Source: Methanospirillum stamsii (GTDB lineage Archaea; Halobacteriota; Methanomicrobia; Methanomicrobiales; Methanospirillaceae). Taken from it: a stretch of DNA of 64,000 nucleotides. The notes beneath the pieces are model-generated. The model was not told the origin of the DNA. It saw only the letters and a list, made by a program, of their open reading frames with translations, and searched no databases. The stretch is taken from NCBI RefSeq assembly GCF_003173335.1, contig NZ_QGMZ01000016.1, forward strand, positions 1 to 64,000, written 5' to 3'. Shown piece after piece: positions 13,334-28,466 of this stretch; the first letter of the stretch is position 1, and the number at the start of each line of letters is the position of its first letter. The position numbers were made by a program, and so were the translations under genes.

Positions 13334-14101
13334 TTATAAAAATTCTGATTCAGGAAGTGGATTTGGCCACAATGATAGAATCACAACCGGACGAACCTCA
13401 CTTACGATACCATAAAAAGGTCTCGCTCTGCCCAAAAAAGAGATTACATTAGGACCGCTGGGAGTCATACTGAGACCTATTAATTCTTCCGAGATAGGGG
13501 TTGGATTACCTTCCACATAATTTTGTAATACCAATTGATTTTCATCGGGTAAAATCGTGATGCGCCATTGACTAGAATGTTTCCGAAATACTCCATCGTT
13601 TGCAACATTCTCAATTCTAGTGCCATAAACATCAAATTTATCTCCTGTAATCTCATCCCGAACCACACTATATCCAAGGACACCATTTGATACTGAGGTC
13701 AACGATCCAGCTGTGGTTTCAATTGAATAAAGGAGAGTATTCGAAGTATTTGATGCAAGATAATCGGCAAACTGGCGAAGAGTCCAATCCCAATAGTGAA
13801 CCTGTTCATCAGATGGCGAACTATCAGGTACCTCTTCCTCACTACTCAAGACCTGAGCACTCTTCAGCAATTTATATGAATCAGATAATACGGTTGAATC
13901 CTGAATAATCTCTGTCCCATCAAATAATTTGGTCCCCACTGCTTTTGTGAGAACATAAGATGTGGGGGAGAGATTTTTTTTCTCTAACGAAGTAAGAGAC
14001 TTGGAAATTTTTGGTTCAAGTGCCGTGACAGAAGTAACAGAGATCATACATAGTAATAATCCTGTTATGATCAGCAAAACCAGAATTGCTCGTAACTTCA
14101 T
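13334..14101 (-). CDS. tandem exported paralogue 4
   Basis: This 255-residue member has a signal peptide (ILVLLIITGLLLCMISVTSV). The Asp/Glu/Ser-rich loop before YWDWTLRQFADYLASNTSNT is shared with paralogue 5. The middle region has no cysteine pair. The second half (about residues 165-240) differs most from the other copies, although the final SLWPNPLPE is kept. Its function is unknown; it is presumed cell-surface or periplasmic-space. Confidence 0.7.
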   Translation of the reverse strand: MKLRAILVLLIITGLLLCMISVTSVTALEPKISKSLTSLEKKNLSPTSYVLTKAVGTKLFDGTEIIQDSTVLSDSYKLLKSAQVLSSEEEVPDSSPSDEQVHYWDWTLRQFADYLASNTSNTLLYSIETTAGSLTSVSNGVLGYSVVRDEITGDKFDVYGTRIENVANDGVFRKHSSQWRITILPDENQLVLQNYVEGNPTPISEELIGLSMTPSGPNVISFLGRARPFYGIVSEVRPVVILSLWPNPLPESEFL

Positions 14102-14244
14102 AACACACCCTCAATATGACCAAAAGGTAGTGAATCTATATATATTTACTGGCGGGGAACGGACATTTTAGGGGGCCGCAGAAATACACCCGGATACCTT
14201 TCGAACGAGTGTAAATTTAATAAAAAAAGAAAATCTCCCAATAT

Positions 14245-14982
14245 TCAGGGAGCTGAGGTCGGAATCGGGTATGGCCATATTGCCAGAGTAGTAACCGGGA
14301 CCCCATAGTCCCTGGCGCCATAAAAAGATGTAGTTTTGCCATTGCTGGAGCCATAACTCGTGGCTATAGCAGAAAGAGGATATTCATCTTCAAATATCGG
14401 GGTTGGGGATGAACTATCCGAGTCATAGTTCTGAATTATCAGTTTGTTATCATCCGGCATAATTATGACACGCCATTGATAGGGGTAACCCATAAATTCG
14501 TGATCAGGAACACCACTCACACCATAGGATAAGCGATATACATCTTGCTTATCTCCGATTATTTCTCTGTTATGCGGACTATATCCAAGGACCCCATGAG
14601 ATGATGTAAAATAATCTCCATCAGTTCTCACAAGAGAATAGAGAAGAGTATTTGAGGTATTTGATGCGAGATAATCGGCGAATTGTGAAAGATTCCAGAT
14701 CCAGTAAAATACCTCTTCATCAGATGGTTGACTATCTGTTGCAGCCTCTTCATCGCCTGAATCTGTAACACTCTCAAACTGTTTCAATGCTTTAGATATC
14801 ACAGTTGGACTCTGAATTATCTCCCTCCCATCAAATAATTTTGTACCTACATCCTTTTTTATTACCTGCGTTGCAGGAGATTTGGATGTTTTTAGTTCTA
14901 ATGCTGTTACAGAAGAAAAAGAGATAATCCCCAGTAATAGACAGGTTATAATCAGTAATACCAGAAGCCTGTGACATCTCAT
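14245..14982 (-). CDS. tandem exported paralogue 5
   Basis: This 245-residue, first-transcribed member of the array has a signal peptide (LLVLLIITCLLLGIISFSSV). It is shorter after the signal because the usual LEKKNLSPTSY stretch is missing. It conserves LFDGREIIQSPTVIS, WIWNLSQFADYLASNTSNT, GVLGYSPHNREIIGDK and the C-terminal WPYPIP. ATG 14982, with AGGGTGC upstream, fits better than ATG 15000. With copy 4 it forms one subgroup of the family. Confidence 0.7.
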   Translation of the reverse strand: MRCHRLLVLLIITCLLLGIISFSSVTALELKTSKSPATQVIKKDVGTKLFDGREIIQSPTVISKALKQFESVTDSGDEEAATDSQPSDEEVFYWIWNLSQFADYLASNTSNTLLYSLVRTDGDYFTSSHGVLGYSPHNREIIGDKQDVYRLSYGVSGVPDHEFMGYPYQWRVIIMPDDNKLIIQNYDSDSSSPTPIFEDEYPLSAIATSYGSSNGKTTSFYGARDYGVPVTTLAIWPYPIPTSAP

Positions 14983-15206
14983 ATAATGCACCCTTATCAT
15001 GACCAGATAGCAGTGAAATTATATAAATATATTGCCTTCTGGCATAATTATTTACTTCGCAAAAACAAACAAAATATCAGGCGATAATATCAAATTTATC
15101 CTCAAAATAGAGAAAATACGATTTTTATAGACATACCATAATCATTCACAGAAACTGATCAGTAGACAATTTCAGAAAGTCCGGTATTATTGAGATAAAA
15201 AAAGGA

Positions 15207-16163: not shown

Positions 16164-16167
16164 CTAA

Positions 16168-16206
16168 TTTAATATAGGTAGACGTAAAAGTTTAGATGAG
16201 ACTAAA
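16168..16206 (+). promoter_or_regulatory. feo operon TATA box and candidate metal-repressor operator
   Basis: A TATA-like TTTAATATA lies at 16168-16176. About 25 bases downstream, over the expected transcription start, is TTTAGATGAGACTAAA at 16191-16206, an inverted repeat with 5-base arms (TTTAG/CTAAA) and a 6-base spacer. Its spacing and position fit repression by a dimeric DtxR-type regulator, and the last gene of the operon encodes one. Assignment is inference from position and symmetry. Confidence 0.45.
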
Positions 16207-16221
16207 ATTATTAGGTGAATC

Positions 16222-16464
16222 ATGTCCATCATCACAGTCGAACAACTCCCCCCCGGATCTTCAGGAATTGTATCTGAAATTCAGGGAGAAACGGCAATTC
16301 GTCGTAGATTAATGGAAATGGGAATATTACCCGGCTCCAAACTGACACTGGTAAAATGGGCCCCCCTCGGAGATCCCGCTGAATGCCAGATCCGCGGTTA
16401 CAAACTGTCTCTTCGTCGTGCAGAGGCAGCATTGATAACGGTTGATACAAAAAAGGGGGAGTGA
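16222..16464 (+). CDS. feoA: FeoA ferrous-iron transport accessory protein (first copy)
   Basis: This 80-residue SH3-like FeoA protein has the family pattern MSIITVEQLPPGSSGIV, then R-R-x-MEMGILPGSKLTL and GYKLSLRRAEAALI. FeoA is a small cytoplasmic partner of FeoB needed for ferrous-iron uptake. It is the first gene of a tight operon; the second feoA starts six bases after its stop. Duplicate feoA genes are common in archaea and anaerobes. The start is ATG 16222 with AGGTGA upstream. Confidence 0.92.
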   Translation: MSIITVEQLPPGSSGIVSEIQGETAIRRRLMEMGILPGSKLTLVKWAPLGDPAECQIRGYKLSLRRAEAALITVDTKKGE

Positions 16465-16470
16465 GACACG

Positions 16471-16695
16471 GTGGTTCCTCTCAGTCTGATGAAAACCGGC
16501 GACAAGGTTGTAGTCAGGGCCATCCAGGGAACCGGACACCTTGCAAAAACCCTCGGCCAACTTGGTATCATTATCGGAATTGAACTAACCATTATCCAAA
16601 AAGCCAAAGAATCCGTAATTGTCCGTATCGGTGAGAGCAGATACGCTCTTGGAGCCGGAGCAGCCAGTATGGTTCTGGTTGAACCACAAATTTGA
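16471..16695 (+). CDS. feoA: FeoA ferrous-iron transport accessory protein (second copy)
   Basis: This 74-residue FeoA-like protein (GTG start at 16471, GGGGGA upstream) contains TGDKVVVRAIQGTGHLA, LGIIIGIELTII and YALGAGAASMVLV. It diverges from the first copy, so it is not a recent duplicate. The two may form a hetero-oligomer on FeoB, although this is not shown for the family in general. feoB begins eight bases downstream. Confidence 0.9.
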   Translation: MVPLSLMKTGDKVVVRAIQGTGHLAKTLGQLGIIIGIELTIIQKAKESVIVRIGESRYALGAGAASMVLVEPQI

Positions 16696-16702
16696 TGATC
16701 TT

Positions 16703-18691
16703 ATGAAAGATATTCGCATATTACTAGCAGGTAACCCAAATGTGGGTAAAACGACCCTGTTCAACAGCCTGTGCGGTGTCCACCAACACACCGGAAACTA
16801 TCCGGGAGTCACTGTTGAAATCAAGGAAGGAAAACGTCAGATAAATGATCATTCCCTTTTTGTATCCGACCTTCCTGGAACGTACAGCCTTTCAGCATTC
16901 ACCCCGGATGAACAGGTGGCCCGTGATGCACTCCTGACATCCAATCCGGATGCGGTTGTGCAGATTGTTGATGCAACAAACATTGAGAGAAACCTCTTTC
17001 TCACAACTCAGTTGATGGAGATAGGCCTTCCAATGGTAATCGCTCTGAATATGAGCGACCTTGCAGACGAGCAGAAGATTACCATTGACGCTGAATGTCT
17101 GGAAAAGAACCTGAAAATCCCGGTGGTCAGGATAGTTGCACGAAATGGAGAAGGGATAGAAAAATTAGTTGATACAATCATCCGGGTTACAGAGAAAAAG
17201 ACACCTGTAGATTACAAAAAAATTGAGTACCCTCATTCTGTTACAACGCACATCGCAGAAATCGGCAATTATCTGAGTTCGCATGTATCTCTCCTTGGTA
17301 AGTTATCACCCCATTATGCCGCAATACGCCTGATGGAAGGAGATGAACACCTGGAAAAAATGCTCCATGATCAGGGACTCGTTATTCCATTCATCGACAA
17401 ATGTGATCCTGCTGAACGTGACGGTATTGCAGAAGACATTCTTCTTGCCCGGTACCGGACTTCGGAAGAGGTAACAACCTGTGCAGTAAAATGCTCCATG
17501 GGAGCCGTAATGCCTGCCGATCTTATTGATCAGGTATTGACACATCGATTGTTCGGAATCCCAATTTTCCTTTCATGCATGTGGTTTGCCTTCCAGATTA
17601 CCTTCAGTGCATCCAATCCGTTCCTTGTGGGGATTGAGTATCTATTCGGAATTTTTACCGAAATGATGAATGGTGTCGAGATGGATCCATTTATCAGATC
17701 ATTCCTGGCTGACGGAGTAATCGGAGGTGTTGGTTCTGTCCTCGTATTTGTTCCAAGTATTTTTGTCATGTTTATCCTCCTTTCAATCCTGGAAGATACC
17801 GGATACCTTGCACGGGCTGCGTTTGTCATGGACCGGTTCATGCATTCGGTAGGATTGCATGGTAAATCATTCATTCCGTTCCTGATAGGATTTGGATGTA
17901 ATGTTCCGGCCATCATGGCAACCCGTACACTCCAAAGCAAAGCTGACCGGATAATCACCATCATCACCATTCCGTTCATGTCATGTGCAGCACGGCTCCC
18001 GGTATACGTCCTGTTTGCAGGAGTATTCTTTGGAGCTGCAGCAGGAAATGTAATATTCTTCCTGTATGTCCTGGGAATTGCTGTAGCCATCATATCAGCC
18101 ATGATATTCCGTCGCTTCGTATTCAGGGACGAACCGTCCCCCTTCATCATGGAACTGCCACCCTATCGGAAACCAAGCGGATTGGCAGCAGCAGTTCACA
18201 TGTGGTATAAAGGCAAGGAATATCTCAAGCGTGCAGGTATTGTCATCTTTGGAGGAGTTCTTGTAGTCTGGGCTCTTGCAACCTTTCCAGTCGGTGTGGA
18301 ATATGGATCGGTAGACAGTCTTGCAGGAATCCTTGGTCAGGTTTTCCAGCCATTGTTCGCACCACTTGGATTTAACTGGCAACTGGTCGTAGGTCTCATC
18401 TTCGGATTCGTTGCAAAAGAGGTTGTAGTCGGATCTCTTGGAACTCTCTACGGCGGAGAAGAGATGCTTGAATCATCCCTCGCTGCCGACCCGACATTAA
18501 GTCCGGTCATCGCCCTTGCATACATGGTATTCGTACTCCTCTACTTCCCCTGTGTAGCTGCATTTGGAGTTATCAGGCAGGAATTGGGCAATTGGAAATG
18601 GACATGCATAGCAGTAGGCTGGGGAATTCTTGTTGCATACATCGTTGCATTCATCACCCTGCATGTAGGATCACTCTTCATTGGAGCATAA
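16703..18691 (+). CDS. feoB: FeoB ferrous-iron transporter
   Basis: This 662-residue protein has an N-terminal G-protein domain: G1 LLAGNPNVGKTTLFNSL, G3 DLPGTYSL and G4 ALNMSD. A helical GDI region follows, then the membrane domain with duplicated Gate motifs (LARAAFVMDRFMHSVGLHG with FIPFLIGFGCNVPAIMATRT, and later FVAKEVVVGSLGTLYGG). It imports Fe2+ across the cytoplasmic membrane, driven or gated by GTP. Length is within the family range. ATG 16703 was chosen because the longer frame would overlap feoA. The next gene begins three bases after its stop. Confidence 0.95.
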   Translation: MKDIRILLAGNPNVGKTTLFNSLCGVHQHTGNYPGVTVEIKEGKRQINDHSLFVSDLPGTYSLSAFTPDEQVARDALLTSNPDAVVQIVDATNIERNLFLTTQLMEIGLPMVIALNMSDLADEQKITIDAECLEKNLKIPVVRIVARNGEGIEKLVDTIIRVTEKKTPVDYKKIEYPHSVTTHIAEIGNYLSSHVSLLGKLSPHYAAIRLMEGDEHLEKMLHDQGLVIPFIDKCDPAERDGIAEDILLARYRTSEEVTTCAVKCSMGAVMPADLIDQVLTHRLFGIPIFLSCMWFAFQITFSASNPFLVGIEYLFGIFTEMMNGVEMDPFIRSFLADGVIGGVGSVLVFVPSIFVMFILLSILEDTGYLARAAFVMDRFMHSVGLHGKSFIPFLIGFGCNVPAIMATRTLQSKADRIITIITIPFMSCAARLPVYVLFAGVFFGAAAGNVIFFLYVLGIAVAIISAMIFRRFVFRDEPSPFIMELPPYRKPSGLAAAVHMWYKGKEYLKRAGIVIFGGVLVVWALATFPVGVEYGSVDSLAGILGQVFQPLFAPLGFNWQLVVGLIFGFVAKEVVVGSLGTLYGGEEMLESSLAADPTLSPVIALAYMVFVLLYFPCVAAFGVIRQELGNWKWTCIAVGWGILVAYIVAFITLHVGSLFIGA

Positions 18692-18694
18692 ACA

Positions 18695-19144
18695 ATGTCA
18701 AACACAACATACCCTCATAAATACCTCTATGGGTGGACAGGAATTGTAGCTCTTTCCACCTTCATCGCCGGCCTCTTATCAATACTTGAAGGAGCAGGAA
18801 TTGCATTCGGGCTCTCCATCTTACCGGATATTCCGGGAGGATGTATCCTGGTACTGCTATCACTCATATTTGGAACTGCGGTTCTGAAAGGCAGATCTGA
18901 CCGTCCGGGATGGATCAGTTTTTCATATGTTGCAAGTCTCCTCCTTCTGGCATTTGCAGGATGTTCCATTCTGGTTGAAGGGGGAAACCTTCTCACCGCA
19001 ATAATGGAAGGAGAAGAAGAAGTAAACCTCATCTCGATTCTTAGCCCGGCATTTATTTGGGCAGGAATCATTGCAATCCCCTTGTACATTGGAGTATCAA
19101 AACTCATGTACAAGTGTTCATACAGGAGTGATTGCTGTGAGTGA
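18695..19144 (+). CDS. four-helix membrane protein of the feo operon
   Basis: This 149-residue protein has four predicted membrane helices (near 15-36, 42-60, 75-95 and 115-137) and a short cytosolic tail ending KCSYRSDCCE. The three terminal cysteines are notable in an iron operon. GGAGC precedes ATG 18695, and the gene follows feoB directly. Its last codons overlap the GTG of the next gene. It matches no family I can name; it may assist FeoB or take part in signalling to the regulators downstream. Confidence 0.65.
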   Translation: MSNTTYPHKYLYGWTGIVALSTFIAGLLSILEGAGIAFGLSILPDIPGGCILVLLSLIFGTAVLKGRSDRPGWISFSYVASLLLLAFAGCSILVEGGNLLTAIMEGEEEVNLISILSPAFIWAGIIAIPLYIGVSKLMYKCSYRSDCCE

Positions 19145-19499
19145 AGGTCTTGAAATCCTTCACCTTATCCATTCAAGGAAAGGATGCCTGCTCTCCGAAC
19201 TGGCTCTTGAACTTGGAATTCCTACAAGTTCGGTCTCATCCTGGGTATCAATGCTATGCAGCACTGGATATCTTAAAAAAGATTTGGGAGAATCAGTAGA
19301 TTTTTCCTGCAAAAAAAACGGGATGAAATGCTCATGCTGCAATTGTTCCTGCGAAAACCAGATTAAAACTAACGAAAGCAGAGTGGAACTCACAAAACGC
19401 GGACTCGCACTCATCAGGAGGAAATGGGATGAAAAAACCGGATCAGAAGTTATCTCAGGCAATGGAAGATTACCTGGAAACAATCTATGTTCTCAGTAA
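19137..19499 (+). CDS. small winged-helix protein with a Cys cluster, FeoC-like
   Basis: This 120-residue protein starts with GTG 19137 (AGGAG at 19124-19128). Residues 3-48 form a winged-helix DNA-binding domain (HLIHSRKGCLLSELALELG, then IPTSSVSSWVSML). Next is a dense cysteine cluster, C58 and then C65-x-C67-C68-x-C70-x-C72, suited to an Fe-S cluster or metal ion. FeoC proteins pair a winged helix with a Cys-rich loop, so this may be an archaeal counterpart; sequence identity cannot be judged by eye. The 3' end overlaps the next gene by 71 bases in another frame. It is probably an iron- or redox-responsive helper of FeoB or of the DtxR-kinase. Confidence 0.6.
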   Translation: MSEGLEILHLIHSRKGCLLSELALELGIPTSSVSSWVSMLCSTGYLKKDLGESVDFSCKKNGMKCSCCNCSCENQIKTNESRVELTKRGLALIRRKWDEKTGSEVISGNGRLPGNNLCSQ

Positions 19500-20658
19500 A
19501 AACAAAGGGTACGCCAGAACTGGTGAAATTGCCCGCTCTCTTAATGTATCGCCCTCTTCCGTTGTTGAAATGGTAGGAAAAATATCCAGACTTGGATATG
19601 CTGAATGGAGACGGTATGAAGGTGTTTTTCTATCTCCTGAAGGCAGGATGAGAGGAGAAGTAATCCACATCCGTCATCAAACACTGCGACAATTTTTTGA
19701 ATTCATCGGAGTTGCCCCGGATGTTGCAAACAAAGAAGCATGTATCATCGAACATGAACTCTCTCCGATAACCACCTCGGCAATTGGAAATCTGGTCAGT
19801 TTTTTAAACACCCCGGCAGGTTCACAAACGATTTCTGCACTTGAACTCTTTTTAAAGATTCAGGATTCCGGGCTTCCCTGGGAACATTCCAGCACTATCC
19901 AGGAGCCTGCATTTAATGAAATGGTTATTAAATCAGCCATTAAATCACAGGCAAATCATGATATCCTATCGGTTATCACCCGTCATGACCTCCTCAATAC
20001 CATAACTGCACTTCACCGATATCTTGACCTACTAAAATCCATGTCTACCGGAGAAGAGATGAACCTGGTTGTTTCAAGGATAGAATCAACGATTCAGGCA
20101 ATTAACAGACAAATTTCAACCAGTTCAGACCAACTTATTCCAGGACTTTCAGGACAGAAATGGATGAATCTTGGAGGTATGGTGTCAAATGCAACAGCCA
20201 TGTTAGACACAGGATCTATTGTTATTGAATATAATCTGGGCTCTATTGAATTATTCGGAGATTCTTTGCTTGAAAAAGTAGTATTTAATCTTCTGGATAA
20301 TGCAATCAGACATGGTAGAAATGTATCACGAGTTGTCTGTGGATTTTCACATGTTGAACAGGGATTGATTGTATATATTCAGGATGACGGAAGCGGAATA
20401 CCAGAAGATGAAAAACAGGCATTATTCAGACCGTCACAGAATAATACAAGGTCCGGACTGTATCTTGCATACCAGATCCTGAGTGCAAGTGGAATGCAAA
20501 TCAGGGAATGTGGACAAATCGGAGTTGGAGCCAGGTTTGAAATTACGGTACCGAACGGACTTTACCGGATGAAGGAAAAAGAAGAAACCGGATTGAAACC
20601 TATTTATTCAGATAATTCCGTATCTGTAAATAAAACCTGCTTTTCTCAGGCTCAATAA
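19429..20658 (+). CDS. DtxR/MntR-type metal-dependent regulator fused to a histidine kinase
   Basis: This 409-residue fusion starts with an MntR/DtxR winged helix (residues 9-73: MEDYLETIYVL, YARTGEIARSLNVSPSSVVE). The metal-binding dimer domain follows (74-145: IRHQTLRQFFEFIGV, EACIIEHELS). Likely ligands by alignment are D14, E17, H83, C105, E108 and H109, a mix of MntR-type (D, E) and DtxR-type (C) positions. Residues 176-375 are a histidine kinase: H-box ITRHDLLN with H186, N-box NLLDNAIRHG, G1 DDGSGIP and G2 SGLYLAY. There is no membrane helix or PAS domain. AGGAGG precedes ATG 19429, inside the upstream gene. As last gene of the feo operon it probably represses feo when iron is bound, and could transmit the metal state to a receiver protein. 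I know of no described example. Confidence 0.82.
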   Translation: MKKPDQKLSQAMEDYLETIYVLSKNKGYARTGEIARSLNVSPSSVVEMVGKISRLGYAEWRRYEGVFLSPEGRMRGEVIHIRHQTLRQFFEFIGVAPDVANKEACIIEHELSPITTSAIGNLVSFLNTPAGSQTISALELFLKIQDSGLPWEHSSTIQEPAFNEMVIKSAIKSQANHDILSVITRHDLLNTITALHRYLDLLKSMSTGEEMNLVVSRIESTIQAINRQISTSSDQLIPGLSGQKWMNLGGMVSNATAMLDTGSIVIEYNLGSIELFGDSLLEKVVFNLLDNAIRHGRNVSRVVCGFSHVEQGLIVYIQDDGSGIPEDEKQALFRPSQNNTRSGLYLAYQILSASGMQIRECGQIGVGARFEITVPNGLYRMKEKEETGLKPIYSDNSVSVNKTCFSQAQ

Positions 20659-21519: not shown

Positions 21520-22809
21520 CTATGAAAATGGAATAGGTTCATGAAGTTCAGCAAAGATCCGGGAAACTTTTCCATCCAGACCAGGACATGAAGTGGCATA
21601 CAAAAAAATTTTCTGATTCTTACCCTTACATTTCAGAATTAACGGATATCCGCTTACATGGTTCTCACCATAGAGCAGTTCATTGCAGATAGTCCTGATT
21701 TCATCAGGATCCAAAAACCATCTGCTAATATCGGTTCCGATGAGAAACGTTCGCGAAAATCCAATCATATTTTCTGTGGCAGCATTCACATCCCAAATAG
21801 TAAGATCATGAGAAATTGTAACCAGGGGATCGATATGAGTTTCAATGAGAGTCCGGTGATAGTGATTCACCTGAGATAAATCAGCCTGAATTTGTTTTTC
21901 CCTGGATACATCACGAAAAGATTCGATTGCCCCGATGATGCATCCCTCAGGATCATACAGATGAGTGGACTTTACCCTGAAGGTAACCGGCAGAGGAAGA
22001 CATGAATCCGGATTGTTTACCTCTGCAATGATCATACCCTCCCTCTCTTCAAGAATCGTCCATGAGTCAGGAGGTGTCACTCCGGAATGAATAAGGGTAT
22101 CTGCAACTGCTATTTTTGATGAGGCATAAAACGGAATTTTTTCAGAATAATCTGATTTTCCGATAATATTTCCGGAATTTACCCCGGTCAGTTCTTCCAT
22201 GCCATGATTCCATGCAAGGACACACCCTCTGGTATCTATGGCATAAGCCGGGTCAGGAAGATGATGAAAGATAGAATAAATAAGCCGTTCTGATTCACGA
22301 ATTTTTTCTTCATACCTGTTCTTTATGACAGCCTGATGAATGACATGAGATAGTTCTGTAAATTGTGCTTTGGGACTACCGCCTTTTCGGATATAATACG
22401 ATGCACCACGGTTTAATGCCTCAATTACAACTTCTTCCCGTCCTCTTCCAGTAAAGAGAATAAAAGGGATATTATACCCGTTACTCCGCAGACAGGAGAG
22501 AAATTCAATACCATTCACATCAGGCATATCAAAATCTGATACAATGGCATCAAAAGACTCTGATAACAGGAGAGAAAGACCTTCAAGTGCAGATGAGCAG
22601 CATATTGCTTCAATGTTTCCGGATTTCTCAAGAAATAACCGGGCAATCTCAAGTAGTGCAGGTTCATCATCAACTATCAGAATACGATGTTTTCTCTTTT
22701 TTATTGTCTCCGAACTATCAGGGGCAGATATTAAGGAGGAGGGAAAAGAGAGAGTTGACTCAGATATAATATGCTGTGACATCCGATCTAAATGAATCGT
22801 TGAAAGCAT
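21520..22809 (-). CDS. response-regulator receiver with two PAS domains, no output domain
   Basis: This is a 429-residue cytoplasmic protein. Residues 41-160 are a receiver domain (ILIVDDEPALLEIARLFLEK, phospho-acceptor Asp in SDFDMPDVNG, FTGRGREEVVIEAL, Lys in YYIRKGG). Two PAS domains follow (about 172-300 and 312-429). There is no kinase, DNA-binding or enzyme domain after the second PAS. It resembles the N-terminal part of the kinase at 25533. It could act as a phosphate sink or signal by protein contacts, and is the nearest receiver to the DtxR-kinase fusion. The start is uncertain within the first 35 disordered residues. Confidence 0.8.
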   Translation of the reverse strand: MLSTIHLDRMSQHIISESTLSFPSSLISAPDSSETIKKRKHRILIVDDEPALLEIARLFLEKSGNIEAICCSSALEGLSLLLSESFDAIVSDFDMPDVNGIEFLSCLRSNGYNIPFILFTGRGREEVVIEALNRGASYYIRKGGSPKAQFTELSHVIHQAVIKNRYEEKIRESERLIYSIFHHLPDPAYAIDTRGCVLAWNHGMEELTGVNSGNIIGKSDYSEKIPFYASSKIAVADTLIHSGVTPPDSWTILEEREGMIIAEVNNPDSCLPLPVTFRVKSTHLYDPEGCIIGAIESFRDVSREKQIQADLSQVNHYHRTLIETHIDPLVTISHDLTIWDVNAATENMIGFSRTFLIGTDISRWFLDPDEIRTICNELLYGENHVSGYPLILKCKGKNQKIFLYATSCPGLDGKVSRIFAELHEPIPFS

Positions 22810-22978: not shown

Positions 22979-23407
22979 ATGGAAGATCATAGTACCTTAA
23001 AAGAAGAACTTAATGAAAATCTCGTTGAATTTTTTGATCGTTTCACTTCCTGGGAATCATCAGTCATAGAATCCTCAAACCTGAAAATATCTGATGCACA
23101 TGCCATTGAGATTCTCGGGCATTACGGCAGGATGAATATGAAAGATCTTGCAGGAAGACTCGGAATCACCACTGGCACAACAACAATTACCGTTGACCGG
23201 CTTGAAAAAGGGGGATTTGCCCAGAGAGTCAGAGCAGAACATGACAGACGATCCTATATTATTGAACTTACTGAAGAAGGAACCCAGGCTTATGAGGAAC
23301 ACCACCGGCACCACCTGAACCTGGCTGCTGAAATTGCAGAGTTACTTGGAGATGAGGAAACCCGGACCCTGATTGTTTTACTAAAAAAGATAAACGAAAG
23401 GATCTGA
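22979..23407 (+). CDS. MarR-family transcriptional regulator
   Basis: This 142-residue protein has the MarR winged helix: HAIEILGHYGRMNMKDLAGR, LGITTGTTTITVDRLEKGGF and the wing RVRAEHDRRSYIIELTEEG. Dimerisation helices lie at both ends. It ends 21 bases before the metal-exporting P-type ATPase and is almost certainly in one operon with it, so it probably controls metal efflux. Unlike ArsR or CadC regulators it has no Cys cluster; metal may be bound through the several His residues near the C-terminal helix (EEHHRHHLN). GGAGAAAG precedes the start. Confidence 0.88.
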   Translation: MEDHSTLKEELNENLVEFFDRFTSWESSVIESSNLKISDAHAIEILGHYGRMNMKDLAGRLGITTGTTTITVDRLEKGGFAQRVRAEHDRRSYIIELTEEGTQAYEEHHRHHLNLAAEIAELLGDEETRTLIVLLKKINERI

Positions 23408-23428
23408 ATCCGGAGCAGTGGGTAGATA

Positions 23429-25369
23429 ATGTCAGCCGAACATGTTCACTGCGATTTAGAAGGATGCCAGGATCATGGGTGTGGGTGTGCTCATGATCAT
23501 GAAAATGCCGGAAAATCCCTCATGAGAGAGATTATCATACTTGTCTTTGCCGGTATTCTGGTAGTAATTGCAGTTTTAACAGAATATTCGATAATTCCGG
23601 TAAAAGAAATTGAGACTCCGGCTGCTCTTGCAGCGTTAGTCCTCACCGCTTTTCCCATATTAAAAGAAGCCGTCCAAGGGCTTATCAATCGAAGATGGGA
23701 TGTTTGCGAACTGGCAGCACTTGCTCTTGTTGCTGCAGTATTAATCGGAGAATTTACCGCAGCAGCAGAAATTGCACTCATTCTGACTATCGGAGAGCTT
23801 GTTGAAGACTACCTCTATTCAAGGACCGGAAAAGAAATTAAGGCCCTGCTTTCAGATTTTCCCACAAAAGCCAGGATAATCAGGGATGAAGAAACAATAG
23901 ATGTACCAATAGAAGAGATACGTGCAGGTGACCGGATCATAATCAGGCCTGGAGACGTTTTTCCGGTGGATGGAGAGGTAAATGAAGGGCATTCAGATGT
24001 TGATGAATCCTTTCTTACCGGTGAAAGCCTCCCAATCCTGAAAAATCCGGGTGACATGGTCTATTCAGGAAGCGTGAACCTGGATGGGGTGGTTGTCTAT
24101 ACAGTAGCCCGCCCGGCAGACCAGTCATCCTATGCAAAAGTTGTCGAACTGGTGAAAGAAGCAGGGACACGAAGACCCCCTTCACATCCGATGATTGACC
24201 GGTTTGCAAAATATTATACTCCGTTCATCCTGCTCATTGCCGGAGGAGTGGTTCTCCTTACAACCGATCTAATCAGGGGGATTACCATTCTCATCGTCGC
24301 CTGTCCCTGTGCTCTCCTCCTGGCAACTCCTTCTGCAGTTCTGGCAGCAATCGGACCAGCTGCAAAAAAAGGAATACTGATCAAGAGTGGAAGATATCTT
24401 GAAATCTGTAAAAATATTTCGGTCATTGTATTTGATAAAACCGGAACCCTGACCTCCGGAGAGATGAATATATCCTCAATAATTCCGGAAAAGGGGATTT
24501 CAGAAGAAGAACTCCTCTCTGTTGCCACCGCTGCAGAAAGAAAATCTCCCCACCCGATTGCAAAAGCAATCATAAAAGAAGCAAATAATCACGGGATAGT
24601 ATATTCCGGTCCTGTAACCGGACGACACATTCCAGGCAAAGGAGCTTTGGACACCATACAGGGAAGTCCAGTTATTGTAGGAAACAGGGATTTTTTACAT
24701 GAAAATTCAATTTCAATACCAGATGCTGCTTTGGATTCAAAATCCAATATCAACCACTATGAAACCGAAGTCATGGTTGCAAGAGATGGACAGTATATCG
24801 GAAAAATAATGGTTGCAGATACCCTGCGCCATGATACAAAAAATGCACTGGTTTCTCTCCGGAAACTGGGATATAATAAAATTGCAATGATTACCGGAGA
24901 TAACCAAAATGTTGCCGGGACTATTGCAAAAGAACTGGACATTCCTGAATCTATGACTTTTGCGGGGTTTCTTCCCGGACAGAAGGAGGAATATATTGCT
25001 AAACTCCAGGATAACGGAGAAGTTGTCTGTTTTGTCGGTGACGGAACTAATGACGGGCCGGCACTTGTAAGAGCTGATCTTGGAATAGGGATGGGAAGCC
25101 GGGAAAATACCCTGGCACTGGAGAGTTCAGGGGTGATCCTCATGCAGGAGGGACTAAGTTCTCTCCCATCTTTCCTATCCCTTGGAAATCTGACCAGCAG
25201 GACAATTAAAATAAATATTATTCTTGCAATGGCCCTCAATCTTATCCTCATAATTTTCGCTGGAACCGGGAGTATATCACCAGTAATGGGAGCAATAGGC
25301 CACCAGGTAGCAACAATAGCAGTCCTGCTTAATTCTATCAGGCTTTCATCCTGTCGAGCAGGGGTGTGA
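23429..25369 (+). CDS. heavy-metal-translocating P1B-type ATPase
   Basis: This 646-residue metal pump has a TGES actuator motif (198-201), CPC in the transport helix (292-294), the phosphorylation motif DKTGT (D336), the HP-locus SPHP near 380 and GDGTNDGPAL near 545. Instead of an HMA domain the N-terminus is a His/Cys stretch (residues 5-24: HVHCDLEGCQDHGCGCAHDH). The last helices read MALNLILIIFAG and AIGHQVATIAVLLNS, lacking the Lys and Asp expected in ZntA/CadA zinc pumps. The metal is therefore unclear; Zn, Mn, Co or Cu remain possible. It is cotranscribed with the MarR regulator and most likely exports excess metal, balancing the iron uptake system nearby. Confidence 0.9.
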   Translation: MSAEHVHCDLEGCQDHGCGCAHDHENAGKSLMREIIILVFAGILVVIAVLTEYSIIPVKEIETPAALAALVLTAFPILKEAVQGLINRRWDVCELAALALVAAVLIGEFTAAAEIALILTIGELVEDYLYSRTGKEIKALLSDFPTKARIIRDEETIDVPIEEIRAGDRIIIRPGDVFPVDGEVNEGHSDVDESFLTGESLPILKNPGDMVYSGSVNLDGVVVYTVARPADQSSYAKVVELVKEAGTRRPPSHPMIDRFAKYYTPFILLIAGGVVLLTTDLIRGITILIVACPCALLLATPSAVLAAIGPAAKKGILIKSGRYLEICKNISVIVFDKTGTLTSGEMNISSIIPEKGISEEELLSVATAAERKSPHPIAKAIIKEANNHGIVYSGPVTGRHIPGKGALDTIQGSPVIVGNRDFLHENSISIPDAALDSKSNINHYETEVMVARDGQYIGKIMVADTLRHDTKNALVSLRKLGYNKIAMITGDNQNVAGTIAKELDIPESMTFAGFLPGQKEEYIAKLQDNGEVVCFVGDGTNDGPALVRADLGIGMGSRENTLALESSGVILMQEGLSSLPSFLSLGNLTSRTIKINIILAMALNLILIIFAGTGSISPVMGAIGHQVATIAVLLNSIRLSSCRAGV

Positions 25370-25532: not shown

Positions 25533-28466
25533 ATGATCCATATCCTTTATGTTGATGATGAAGAAGTCCTCCTTGACCTTGCAAAAATATTTTTGGAAAA
25601 GAATAGGGAGTTTTCTGTAGATACCGCACTTTCTGCAGTGGAGATTATTGAATCCGGGACTATCTCATCGTATGATGCAATTATATCCGACTACATGATG
25701 CCGGAGATGGATGGGATCGCTTTCTTAAAAGAGATTCGCAAAAAATTCCCGGATATTCCCTTTGTCCTGTTTACCGGAAGAGGACGTGAAGAAGTAGTAA
25801 TTGAAGCCATCAATTACGGCGCTGATTTTTACCTCCAGAAAGGAGGAGATCCGAAGGCACAGTTTGCTGAACTGGGGCACAAAGTTGCACAGGCAGTCAA
25901 ACGAAGAAAGGCGGAAAAAGAACTGGTTAATTCTGAAAACCGATTCACACAGGTTTTCCAGGCGAATCCTACCATTGCAGGATTATCTGAACTACATTCA
26001 AGTCGTTTTGTAGATGTAAACGAAGCTTTTTTGAGCCGCCTTTCTTTTACCCGTAATGAGGTCATCGGGAAAAATCCCATCGAATTGGGGATAATCACCG
26101 AAGAAACACAAACTTCTATCTTCCAATCTTTTCAGGAAAATGGATATCTCCACAACTATGAGACGAAATTTTACACGAAGAACAAGGAATCATTACATGT
26201 TCTGGTCTCGATAGATGTCATTTCATCATCCGGTGAAGACATCCTGCTTGTCCAGGCAATTGATATTACCGAAAGAAGTTATGCAGAAGAGAAAATGCGC
26301 CAAACCCTTGAAAATCTGGGGAAAACGCAAAGGATTGCACGGGTAGGTAACTGGAGTCTTGATATTAATACCCGGAAATATTCTGCTTCAGATGAAATAT
26401 ATCACATGTTTGGTTTTCCTCCGGGAACCGAGGTCAGCTATGAACAGATAGCCGAGATGATTCATCCGGATGACCGGCCTAAAATGAGGGAACTATTCAA
26501 CCAGGCTGTTAAAACCGGCAGACCCTACAATACAGAGATGCGTATTATTCTGCCGGAAACCGGAGAGGAACGATATATTACCACAATAGGGGAGCTGGAA
26601 ATCGACAGTGAGGGTAGTCCGGTCAGGGTTTTCGGAGTAAACCAGGATATCACCGAACTAAAAAAGACATCCTGTGCCCTGATAGAATATGAAACACAGT
26701 TTCAGCAGATCATCGATAATTTCCCGGTTTCCATAACAATAGTTACTCTGAAGGGAAACCTCCTTTACGCTAATCCACAGGCCGTAAAACTTTTTGAACT
26801 TGACAAGAGTAATGAAATTTCATCAATCACGGTCAATGATTTTTGGGCCAACCCCGATGAACGGAAAGACTGGGTAAAGAGACTGAAGACAGACAATATC
26901 GTCACAGATTATGAAGTCGAATTTTTTTTGCCATCAGGGAAACGAATCTGGATCATTCTTTTTGGCATTTTTATCTCTTTTAAGGGTGAAAAATGCATTC
27001 TCTCAGCTCACCATAACATCACAGACCGAAAAATTGCCGAGAAAGAATTAAAAAAGAGTGAGGAGAGATACCGGTTCATAACAGATAATTCAACAGACGT
27101 TATCTGGACCATGAATCTTGAGGGCTGGTTCACTTTTGTAAGCCCCTCAGTGTATCATTTAAGAGGGTATACCCCGGAAGAAGTGATTGAAAAACCTGTA
27201 GTTGATGCAATTTCTCCGGGATCTGTGGGCCTTGCAATGCAGATCATGAATAACACCCATGAGAAGGTAAAAGCAGGTTTAAGGCCGGAACCTGAGTTTT
27301 TCGAGGTTGAACAACCCTGCAAGGATGGATCCACTGTCTGGACCGAAGTTGTTGCAAGATCGTTGTATGATAAAAATGACAACATCATTGGATTTCTTGG
27401 GATAAGCAGAGATATTACAAAACGAAGAGCAGCAGAACGGGCATTAAAGGAAAGTGAACAAAAATTTATCACAATTTTCAACCAGACCCCGGATCCCATC
27501 TTAATTATTGATACAAAGGGCATTATCCTTGAAGTAAACAAAGGATTTGAAGAGATATTTGGAAAGAAAAATACCGAAATTACCGGAAAGAATCTGAAAA
27601 ATATTGGTATATTTCAGGATAAAGTGAGGGAGATGAACCTGCTTATTTCAGATGATAAAAGCGGACAGATAACCAGGACTGAAATTGAGTTCACCAATAA
27701 GAATAACATCCCCTTTTATGCTGAAGTCGCTATTTCGCGAATAAATATTCAAAACCAGGCAGCAAGTCTTCTCCAGATTCATGACATTAATGAGATAAAA
27801 CGGGCACATGATGCGGTCAAATCAGCAAACAATAAACTGAGCATTCTCTCCAGTATTACCAGGCATGACGTGTTAAACAAAGTAATGATTACATCTCTCT
27901 ATAGTGAAGAGATGCGAGAGAGTGTAACCGATGAAAAACTCAAAAAATACCTTGATACTATTACCGAAAACTCATCTTATATCGCCCGTCTTATCAACAT
28001 GACAAAAGAATACCAGGAGCTGGGAACGAGTGCCCCGATATGGCAACGGGTTCCAGACCTGATTCAAAGCGAGACAATTCTTGGACTTTTACAGAACATT
28101 ACCCTACAATCAGACCTTGATAACCTTGAGATTTATGCAGATCTTATGCTGGAAAAAGTATTGTATAATCTCGTGGATAATTCGGTTCGTCATGGAAAAA
28201 ACCTCACATTCATCAGATTTTCATATCACATCAAAGAAAATGACTGTATTCTTGTGTATGAAGATGATGGTGGCGGGATTGTAGAAAATGAAAAAACGAA
28301 GATTTTTGAGAGGGGGTTTGGAAAAAATACCGGGATGGGATTATTTCTGATACGTGAGATCCTGTCTATTACCGGAATTCAAATATCTGAAACCGGAACC
28401 TATGGAAAAGGTGTTACATTTGAAATGCTGATTCAGGCAGGAAAATGGCGGATATCAAAAAATTAA
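25533..28466 (+). CDS. hybrid sensor: receiver, five PAS domains and histidine kinase
   Basis: This 977-residue cytoplasmic kinase starts with a receiver domain (1-120: ILYVDDEEVLLDLAKIFLEK, SDYMMPEMDG, FTGRGREEVVIEAI). About five PAS/PAC modules follow (130-250, 260-375, 380-500, 505-630, 635-755). The C-terminus has the archaeal H-box SSITRHDVLNKVM (H778), N-box NLVDNSVRHG, G1 EDDGGGI and a G2 loop GMGLFLI. It has no membrane helix, so it senses internal signals such as redox state, ligands or the state of other kinases. Placing the receiver at the N-terminus is common in methanogens. It ends in a shared terminator with the chemoreceptor gene. Confidence 0.9.
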   Translation: MIHILYVDDEEVLLDLAKIFLEKNREFSVDTALSAVEIIESGTISSYDAIISDYMMPEMDGIAFLKEIRKKFPDIPFVLFTGRGREEVVIEAINYGADFYLQKGGDPKAQFAELGHKVAQAVKRRKAEKELVNSENRFTQVFQANPTIAGLSELHSSRFVDVNEAFLSRLSFTRNEVIGKNPIELGIITEETQTSIFQSFQENGYLHNYETKFYTKNKESLHVLVSIDVISSSGEDILLVQAIDITERSYAEEKMRQTLENLGKTQRIARVGNWSLDINTRKYSASDEIYHMFGFPPGTEVSYEQIAEMIHPDDRPKMRELFNQAVKTGRPYNTEMRIILPETGEERYITTIGELEIDSEGSPVRVFGVNQDITELKKTSCALIEYETQFQQIIDNFPVSITIVTLKGNLLYANPQAVKLFELDKSNEISSITVNDFWANPDERKDWVKRLKTDNIVTDYEVEFFLPSGKRIWIILFGIFISFKGEKCILSAHHNITDRKIAEKELKKSEERYRFITDNSTDVIWTMNLEGWFTFVSPSVYHLRGYTPEEVIEKPVVDAISPGSVGLAMQIMNNTHEKVKAGLRPEPEFFEVEQPCKDGSTVWTEVVARSLYDKNDNIIGFLGISRDITKRRAAERALKESEQKFITIFNQTPDPILIIDTKGIILEVNKGFEEIFGKKNTEITGKNLKNIGIFQDKVREMNLLISDDKSGQITRTEIEFTNKNNIPFYAEVAISRINIQNQAASLLQIHDINEIKRAHDAVKSANNKLSILSSITRHDVLNKVMITSLYSEEMRESVTDEKLKKYLDTITENSSYIARLINMTKEYQELGTSAPIWQRVPDLIQSETILGLLQNITLQSDLDNLEIYADLMLEKVLYNLVDNSVRHGKNLTFIRFSYHIKENDCILVYEDDGGGIVENEKTKIFERGFGKNTGMGLFLIREILSITGIQISETGTYGKGVTFEMLIQAGKWRISKN

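Follow-up and report, generated by a model that had tools for sequence, protein, structure and literature searches.

In the stretch of DNA analysed here (64,000 nucleotides, hereafter the window), from the methane-producing archaeon Methanospirillum stamsii, the last gene of a feo (ferrous iron uptake) operon encodes a DtxR/MntR-type repressor joined in one reading frame to a histidine kinase module. We propose that this fusion represses its own feo operon in a metal-dependent manner and has a histidine kinase built in, an interpretation for which we see about as much reason to believe as to doubt. Both halves belong to known families; their combination, as far as searched, is undescribed and confined to one genus. 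The features discussed are collected in Table 1.

Table 1. Features of the feo operon, the fusion gene and its neighbourhood (window coordinates)
Feature	Position	Strand	Basis
TATA-box-like element AATTTAATATAG, putative feo promoter	16166..16177	+	AT-rich, conserved in feoA upstream alignment
Operator-like dyad TTTAGATGAGACTAAA (TTTAG-N6-CTAAA)	16191..16206	.	Conserved in genus
feoA 1	16222..16464	+	Pfam FeoA 1.8e-21
feoA 2	16471..16695	+	Pfam FeoA 1.3e-16
feoB, likely start ATG 16703	16703..18691	+	TIGR00437 1e-191
Small hydrophobic (probably membrane) protein without family match	18695..19144	+	Conserved within operon
Winged-helix protein with Cys cluster FSCKKNGMKCSCCNCSCEN	19137..19499	+	Pfam HTH_IclR 3.8e-6
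DtxR/MntR-histidine kinase fusion	19429..20658	+	409 aa; ORF list, Pfam, orthologs
Fusion: winged helix-turn-helix DNA-binding domain, residues 7-66	19447..19626	+	Pfam PF01325 1.9e-19; model pLDDT >90
Fusion: metal-binding and dimerisation domain, residues 70-146	19636..19866	+	Pfam PF02742 1e-10; MntR alignment
Fusion: flexible linker, residues 147-162	19867..19914	+	pLDDT ~40 in model
Fusion: DHp helix pair, residues 163-230; His186 at 19984-19986	19915..20118	+	Model helices; TRHDL invariant
Fusion: ATP-binding catalytic domain with N-box, G1 and partial G2, residues 244-381	20158..20571	+	HATPase_c 5.7e-13; Foldseek HK853
Fusion: unstructured tail, almost neutral evolution	20584..20655	+	dN/dS ~0.7-1.3 in most pairs
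REC-PAS-PAS protein without kinase, convergent with fusion	21520..22809	-	Orthologs adjoin fusion

The original prediction of a DtxR-type repressor and a kinase in a single frame proved exact, and Pfam agreed with it: Fe_dep_repress (PF01325) matched residues 7-66 with 70 bits (curated cut-off 26), Fe_dep_repr_C (PF02742) residues 70-128 with 41.9 bits (cut-off 27) and HATPase_c residues 280-376 with 49.7 bits (cut-off 26.4). As predicted for a PAS part, neither PAS nor any further domain scored above the Pfam cut-off, and Response_reg had no match in the chain. That an assembly or sequencing error fused two separate genes, a possibility raised together with the prediction, is close to inconceivable, because nine independent assemblies, some of them single-contig genomes, carry the identical open fusion under purifying selection; as these orthologs keep the frame open and nothing spoke in favour of an error, it was rejected as an explanation.

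Alignment of the repressor half with B. subtilis MntR (1on1; E 2.7e-21) requires no gaps and pairs residues D14, E17, H83, C105, E108 and H109 of the fusion with D8, E11, H77, E99, E102 and H103, the Mn ligands of MntR (PMC9861239). All six had been proposed as metal ligands from the sequence, and all are invariant in 9/9 orthologs. The set is nevertheless mixed, with an MntR-like Asp and a DtxR-like Cys, through one MntR-to-DtxR swap (E99 to Cys105). Overall, the sequence lies far nearer MntR (E ~1e-22), the nearest solved relative, than DtxR/IdeR (~2e-3); against the MntR equivalog model NF003025, the fusion scores 109.4 bits, below the cut-off of 138. By these comparisons, it is a member of the DtxR/MntR family but not an equivalog MntR, and its repressor is a two-domain MntR-type DtxR. 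The earlier label of an iron-type regulator was thus too strong, since the closer kinship is with MntR and the label rests on the feo context. Iron as the likely signal agrees with the operon, and this context together with a DtxR-FeoB link proposed in Methanococcus voltae (PMC8516115) points to Fe(II). However, the sole studied protein that we found with the Asp/Cys set, PgMntR, binds Mn(II) as well as Fe(II), its DNA binding being favoured by Mn(II) and weakened by Fe(II) (PMC4805248).

In the kinase half, the window copy has H186, an N-box (NLLDN) and a G1 box (DDGSG). The kinase had been described as complete, which applies to these three elements but not to the G2 box, which reads RSGLYL and lacks its first Gly; some orthologs retain GTGLYL or GLGLYL. 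The HisKA profile (PF00512) did not match the fusion, and a kinase encoded at 25533-28466 with a similar TRHD-type motif (TRHDV) is also under the HisKA cut-off (18.2 vs 26.9 bits). Identity to methanogen archaeal kinases is 34-43%. Structure modelling had been suggested earlier as a check. With 9 sequences, the first model was of low quality (pLDDT 58), whereas a 46-row alignment raised the pLDDT to 76, with confident winged-helix, dimerisation and ATPase domains, a flexible linker at residues 147-162 and two helices spanning residues 163-204 (long, containing H186) and 209-230. Foldseek retrieved HK853-type kinases (5e-11). In this model, the phospho-acceptor His186 sits in a HisKA-like DHp helix pair; being a monomer with an undefined linker, the model is silent on relative domain placement and coupling.

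The fusion is present in 9/12 Methanospirillum genomes, and a tenth contains a broken remnant; 49 other relatives of the order have none. A fusion profile run against a 393-genome sample of the phylum, with at most 4 candidates scored per genome, gave no full-length match beyond the window's genome among the matches listed, and a GTDB scan of 84,980 species, which reaches close relatives only, found the fusion only in Methanospirillum. Other long DtxR frames of the order (645, 554, 390, 384, 339, 329, 322 and 319 aa) were inspected by eye; each turned out to be either a DtxR-FeoA protein or a short DtxR lengthened by a chance frame upstream, and none had a kinase. Three candidates from the GTDB-wide peptide scan (L124-L126) are frames of 129-242 aa without a kinase.

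Among the orthologs, the repressor, DHp and ATPase parts are all under purifying selection. For the repressor part, most pairs have a dN/dS of 0.04-0.06 and the closest pair one of 0.16; for the DHp, it is ~0.02-0.09 in most pairs and higher in the most distant ones, and for the ATPase domain ~0.13-0.17 where well estimated, while the last 29 residues change in a near-neutral manner. The winged helix (VSPSSVVEM) belongs to the best-conserved stretches. In the remnant in G004 (L069 5048-5322; G004:C18:11047-11321), only residues 1-92 are left, disrupted by a frameshift and an in-frame stop; the kinase is gone and the preceding feo operon is intact. The conservation in the orthologs and this remnant indicate an old fusion within the genus, with at least one loss. 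Synonymous divergence is uneven along the gene (repressor vs ATPase part: dS 0.7 vs 2.1 for window/L010 and 0.19 vs 0.02 for L012/L014), and such strong differences between domains among L010, L012, L014 and the window suggest intragenic recombination.

These data bear on whether the kinase signals at all. The protein could be a feo repressor with a non-signalling kinase, in which the DHp provides extra dimerisation and the ATP domain is a nucleotide sensor or decaying cargo. Several observations would fit such a protein: among the orthologs, L015 no longer has the ATP-site residues (N-box Asn, G1 Asp and G2), the window copy is short of one G2 Gly, evolution is faster in the ATPase part than elsewhere in the protein, and several genomes have no linked receiver. 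Against it, His186 and the TRHDL motif are invariant in 9/9 orthologs, 8/9 retain both the Asn of the N-box and the Asp of G1, and dN/dS is low in the DHp and the ATPase domain. We hold a silent kinase to be rather unlikely.

The fusion ends the operon, as originally predicted, but does not directly follow feoA-feoA-feoB: two genes separate it from feoB. The genes run feoA-feoA-feoB-membrane protein-Cys-rich winged-helix gene-fusion, and neighbours either overlap or stand no more than 7 bases apart. The 5' end of the fusion gene overlaps the preceding gene by 71 bases, and its ATG start codon has its own Shine-Dalgarno sequence (AGGAGG) shortly 5' of the frame. Gene order, co-direction and the overlap at the operon end are kept in the fusion-bearing genomes with long enough contigs. 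The Cys-rich winged-helix protein matched only IclR/MarR-type and other HTH profiles in Pfam, without a match to the FeoC profile, and a PDB search with it gave nothing useful. Its Cys cluster, located in the wing, is conserved across 9 orthologs; by position and design, the protein looks FeoC-like and may be an archaeal FeoC analogue, possibly an Fe-S sensor. Small Cys-rich HTH genes occupy the equivalent place in G014 and G041.

On the far side of the fusion, orthologs of the REC-PAS-PAS protein were found in 5 genomes of the genus (window, G009, G007, G002, G008). All of them adjoin the fusion, and the rest of the genus has none; several fusion-bearing genomes have no such neighbour. Because all orthologs lie beside the fusion and the broken-fusion genome (G004) is without one, this protein is a candidate phospho-acceptor partner. 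Further downstream (22979-25369), a MarR-type regulator gene is followed by one for a heavy-metal P-type ATPase whose N-terminus is rich in Cys and His; several genomes keep this arrangement downstream of the fusion. Upstream of the operon, the minus strand (13334-15000) encodes two adjacent paralogous secreted-looking proteins of 255 and 251 aa.

An alignment of the regions upstream of feoA from eight genomes revealed the conserved dyad TTTAG-N6-CTAAA. It lies 27 bp downstream of the TATA-like element, centre to centre, and would therefore cover the predicted feoA transcription start. In the window's whole genome, the pattern occurs in 2 places vs 18 for a reversed control pattern, and across five whole genomes once or twice each (control 4-23); its sole place in G003 and G017 is the feo promoter. 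The dyad at feo is exact in the window, G001, G003, G007, G009 and G017 and has one mismatch in G010, G002 and G008, while its right arm is altered in G004, the genome with the broken fusion. In other genera, an exact dyad stands just upstream of a stand-alone DtxR gene in G014 and G036 (0 mismatches, 0.00 expected), in G014 between feoA and the divergent DtxR gene. Most other feo-linked DtxRs of the order have no such dyad nearby, so that our claim is confined to the window's family. The location of the fusion at the operon end and a promoter dyad shared with stand-alone DtxR relatives would fit feo autorepression.

Other potential regulators exist in the same genome, namely further DtxR proteins, including a classical DtxR-FeoA protein (G000:C44) that a second feoB follows elsewhere, and the Cys-rich winged-helix protein. 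One of these, a second DtxR or the winged-helix protein, might control the dyad and feo while the fusion has other targets. Besides the DtxR paralogs, G017 would fit this, as it has the dyad without the fusion. Against it, the stand-alone genes that the dyad accompanies in G014 and G036 belong to the same DtxR subfamily, and the FeoB tree places the FeoB of G017 among those of fusion-bearing operons, which makes loss of the fusion after the dyad had formed likely. G017 may reflect loss of the fusion or transfer without it; its dyad may be read by another protein or be a leftover. We judge control of feo by another regulator to be very unlikely. Scarcely more probable is a cytosolic metal-sensing kinase in which the DtxR domain serves as input only, without DNA binding, and phosphotransfer is the sole output. 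In its favour, many kinases of archaea are cytoplasmic, and signalling in archaea is believed to run mostly via protein contacts (PMC5847659); moreover, Methanospirillum hungatei JF1 has 82 kinases, most of them not linked to receivers, besides 41 response regulators and 18 receiver-only proteins (PMC4704411). An input-only role is at odds with the strongly conserved winged helix, with the dyad at the feo promoter common to stand-alone DtxR relatives and with the operon-end position, which fits autoregulation.

For the metal-dependent feo repressor with a built-in kinase, we envisage the following mechanism. Cytoplasmic Fe(II), possibly Mn(II), would fill the two-metal site formed by D14, E17, H83, C105, E108 and H109 and lock the dimer into its DNA-binding form. 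The metal-bound dimer would occupy TTTAG-N6-CTAAA over the feoA start and switch off feo, the fusion included, as negative feedback. Dimerisation would also bring together two DHp-ATPase modules, allowing autophosphorylation at His186, and kinase activity may be coupled to metal or DNA occupancy via the linker and the long DHp helix. The phosphate might pass to a receiver protein, perhaps the REC-PAS-PAS neighbour or an unlinked receiver. Counting against this mechanism are the degenerate kinase of L015, the G2 Gly missing in the window, the lack of a HisKA match, the dyad without a fusion in G017, the other DtxR proteins and the Cys-rich winged-helix protein as rival regulators, and the fusion-bearing genomes that have no REC-PAS-PAS neighbour. 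More tentatively, one cytoplasmic protein could act as a one-component repressor and a sensor kinase at once, with metal (perhaps operator) occupancy leading to feo repression and to a phosphate signal for other processes, or with ATP or phosphorylation setting DNA binding; it would be the first such metalloregulator.

Full-text searches for a DtxR-kinase fusion found no description. In the passages searched of a census of archaeal two-component systems (PMC5847659) and of the JF1 genome paper (PMC4704411), the fusion is not described, and the words iron and repressor are absent from the main text of the former. The view that no family with this architecture has been described therefore held for the literature searched. 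The iron demand of methanogens is high, yet their iron sensing is poorly understood, and to our knowledge most archaeal histidine kinases are without a known signal or partner. Here, a single protein unites a likely signal (metal), a likely target (the feo dyad) and a kinase. Since the type species of the genus is in culture, signal input, DNA output and phosphotransfer are open to joint measurement. Cell metal may be read by one protein in two ways, as a gene switch and as a phosphorylation signal; if these outputs are coupled, one-component and two-component regulation would be joined in a way absent from the literature searched.

At 41-53% identity, the closest stand-alone DtxRs consist of two domains, are mostly 142-172 aa long and have the same Asp/Cys ligands, and several adjoin feoB genes; in G014 and G015, from other genera of the family, the stand-alone gene is divergent to the same feoA-feoA-feoB operon. 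The suggestion that the kinase took the place of an SH3-like or FeoA-like domain is contradicted by these relatives, which lack such a domain and point to a short DtxR without one as ancestor. The fusion likely arose when a feo-linked stand-alone regulator came to lie behind the operon and was fused to a kinase of the methanogen type.

Among known systems, B. subtilis MntR (PDB 1on1/6kta) resembles the fusion in its winged helix, its metal-binding and dimerisation domain, the lack of an SH3 domain and five of six identical ligands; the fusion differs in having Cys105 for E99, in scoring under the NCBI equivalog cut-off and in carrying a kinase. With DtxR/IdeR and archaeal DtxR-FeoA proteins (e.g., G000:C44), it shares the Cys-x-x-Glu-His primary-site motif and the feo context, but it has neither an SH3 nor a FeoA third domain, and a kinase follows the repressor instead. 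The first ligand is Met in DtxR, where the fusion has Asp. PgMntR of Porphyromonas gingivalis shares the mixed Asp/Cys set (D19, C108), but has FeoA domains at its end, controls an FeoB that transports manganese and has no kinase (PMC4805248). The soluble PAS-histidine kinases of methanogens, such as the one at 25533-28466, share the TRHD phospho-acceptor region and HATPase_c with the fusion, in which their PAS/REC sensor is replaced by a DNA-binding metal sensor. Finally, Bacteroides hybrid two-component systems also unite a kinase and a DNA-binding domain in one protein, with a membrane sensor and a receiver between the kinase and an AraC-type HTH; in contrast, the fusion has no receiver, and its DNA-binding part would itself be the sensor.
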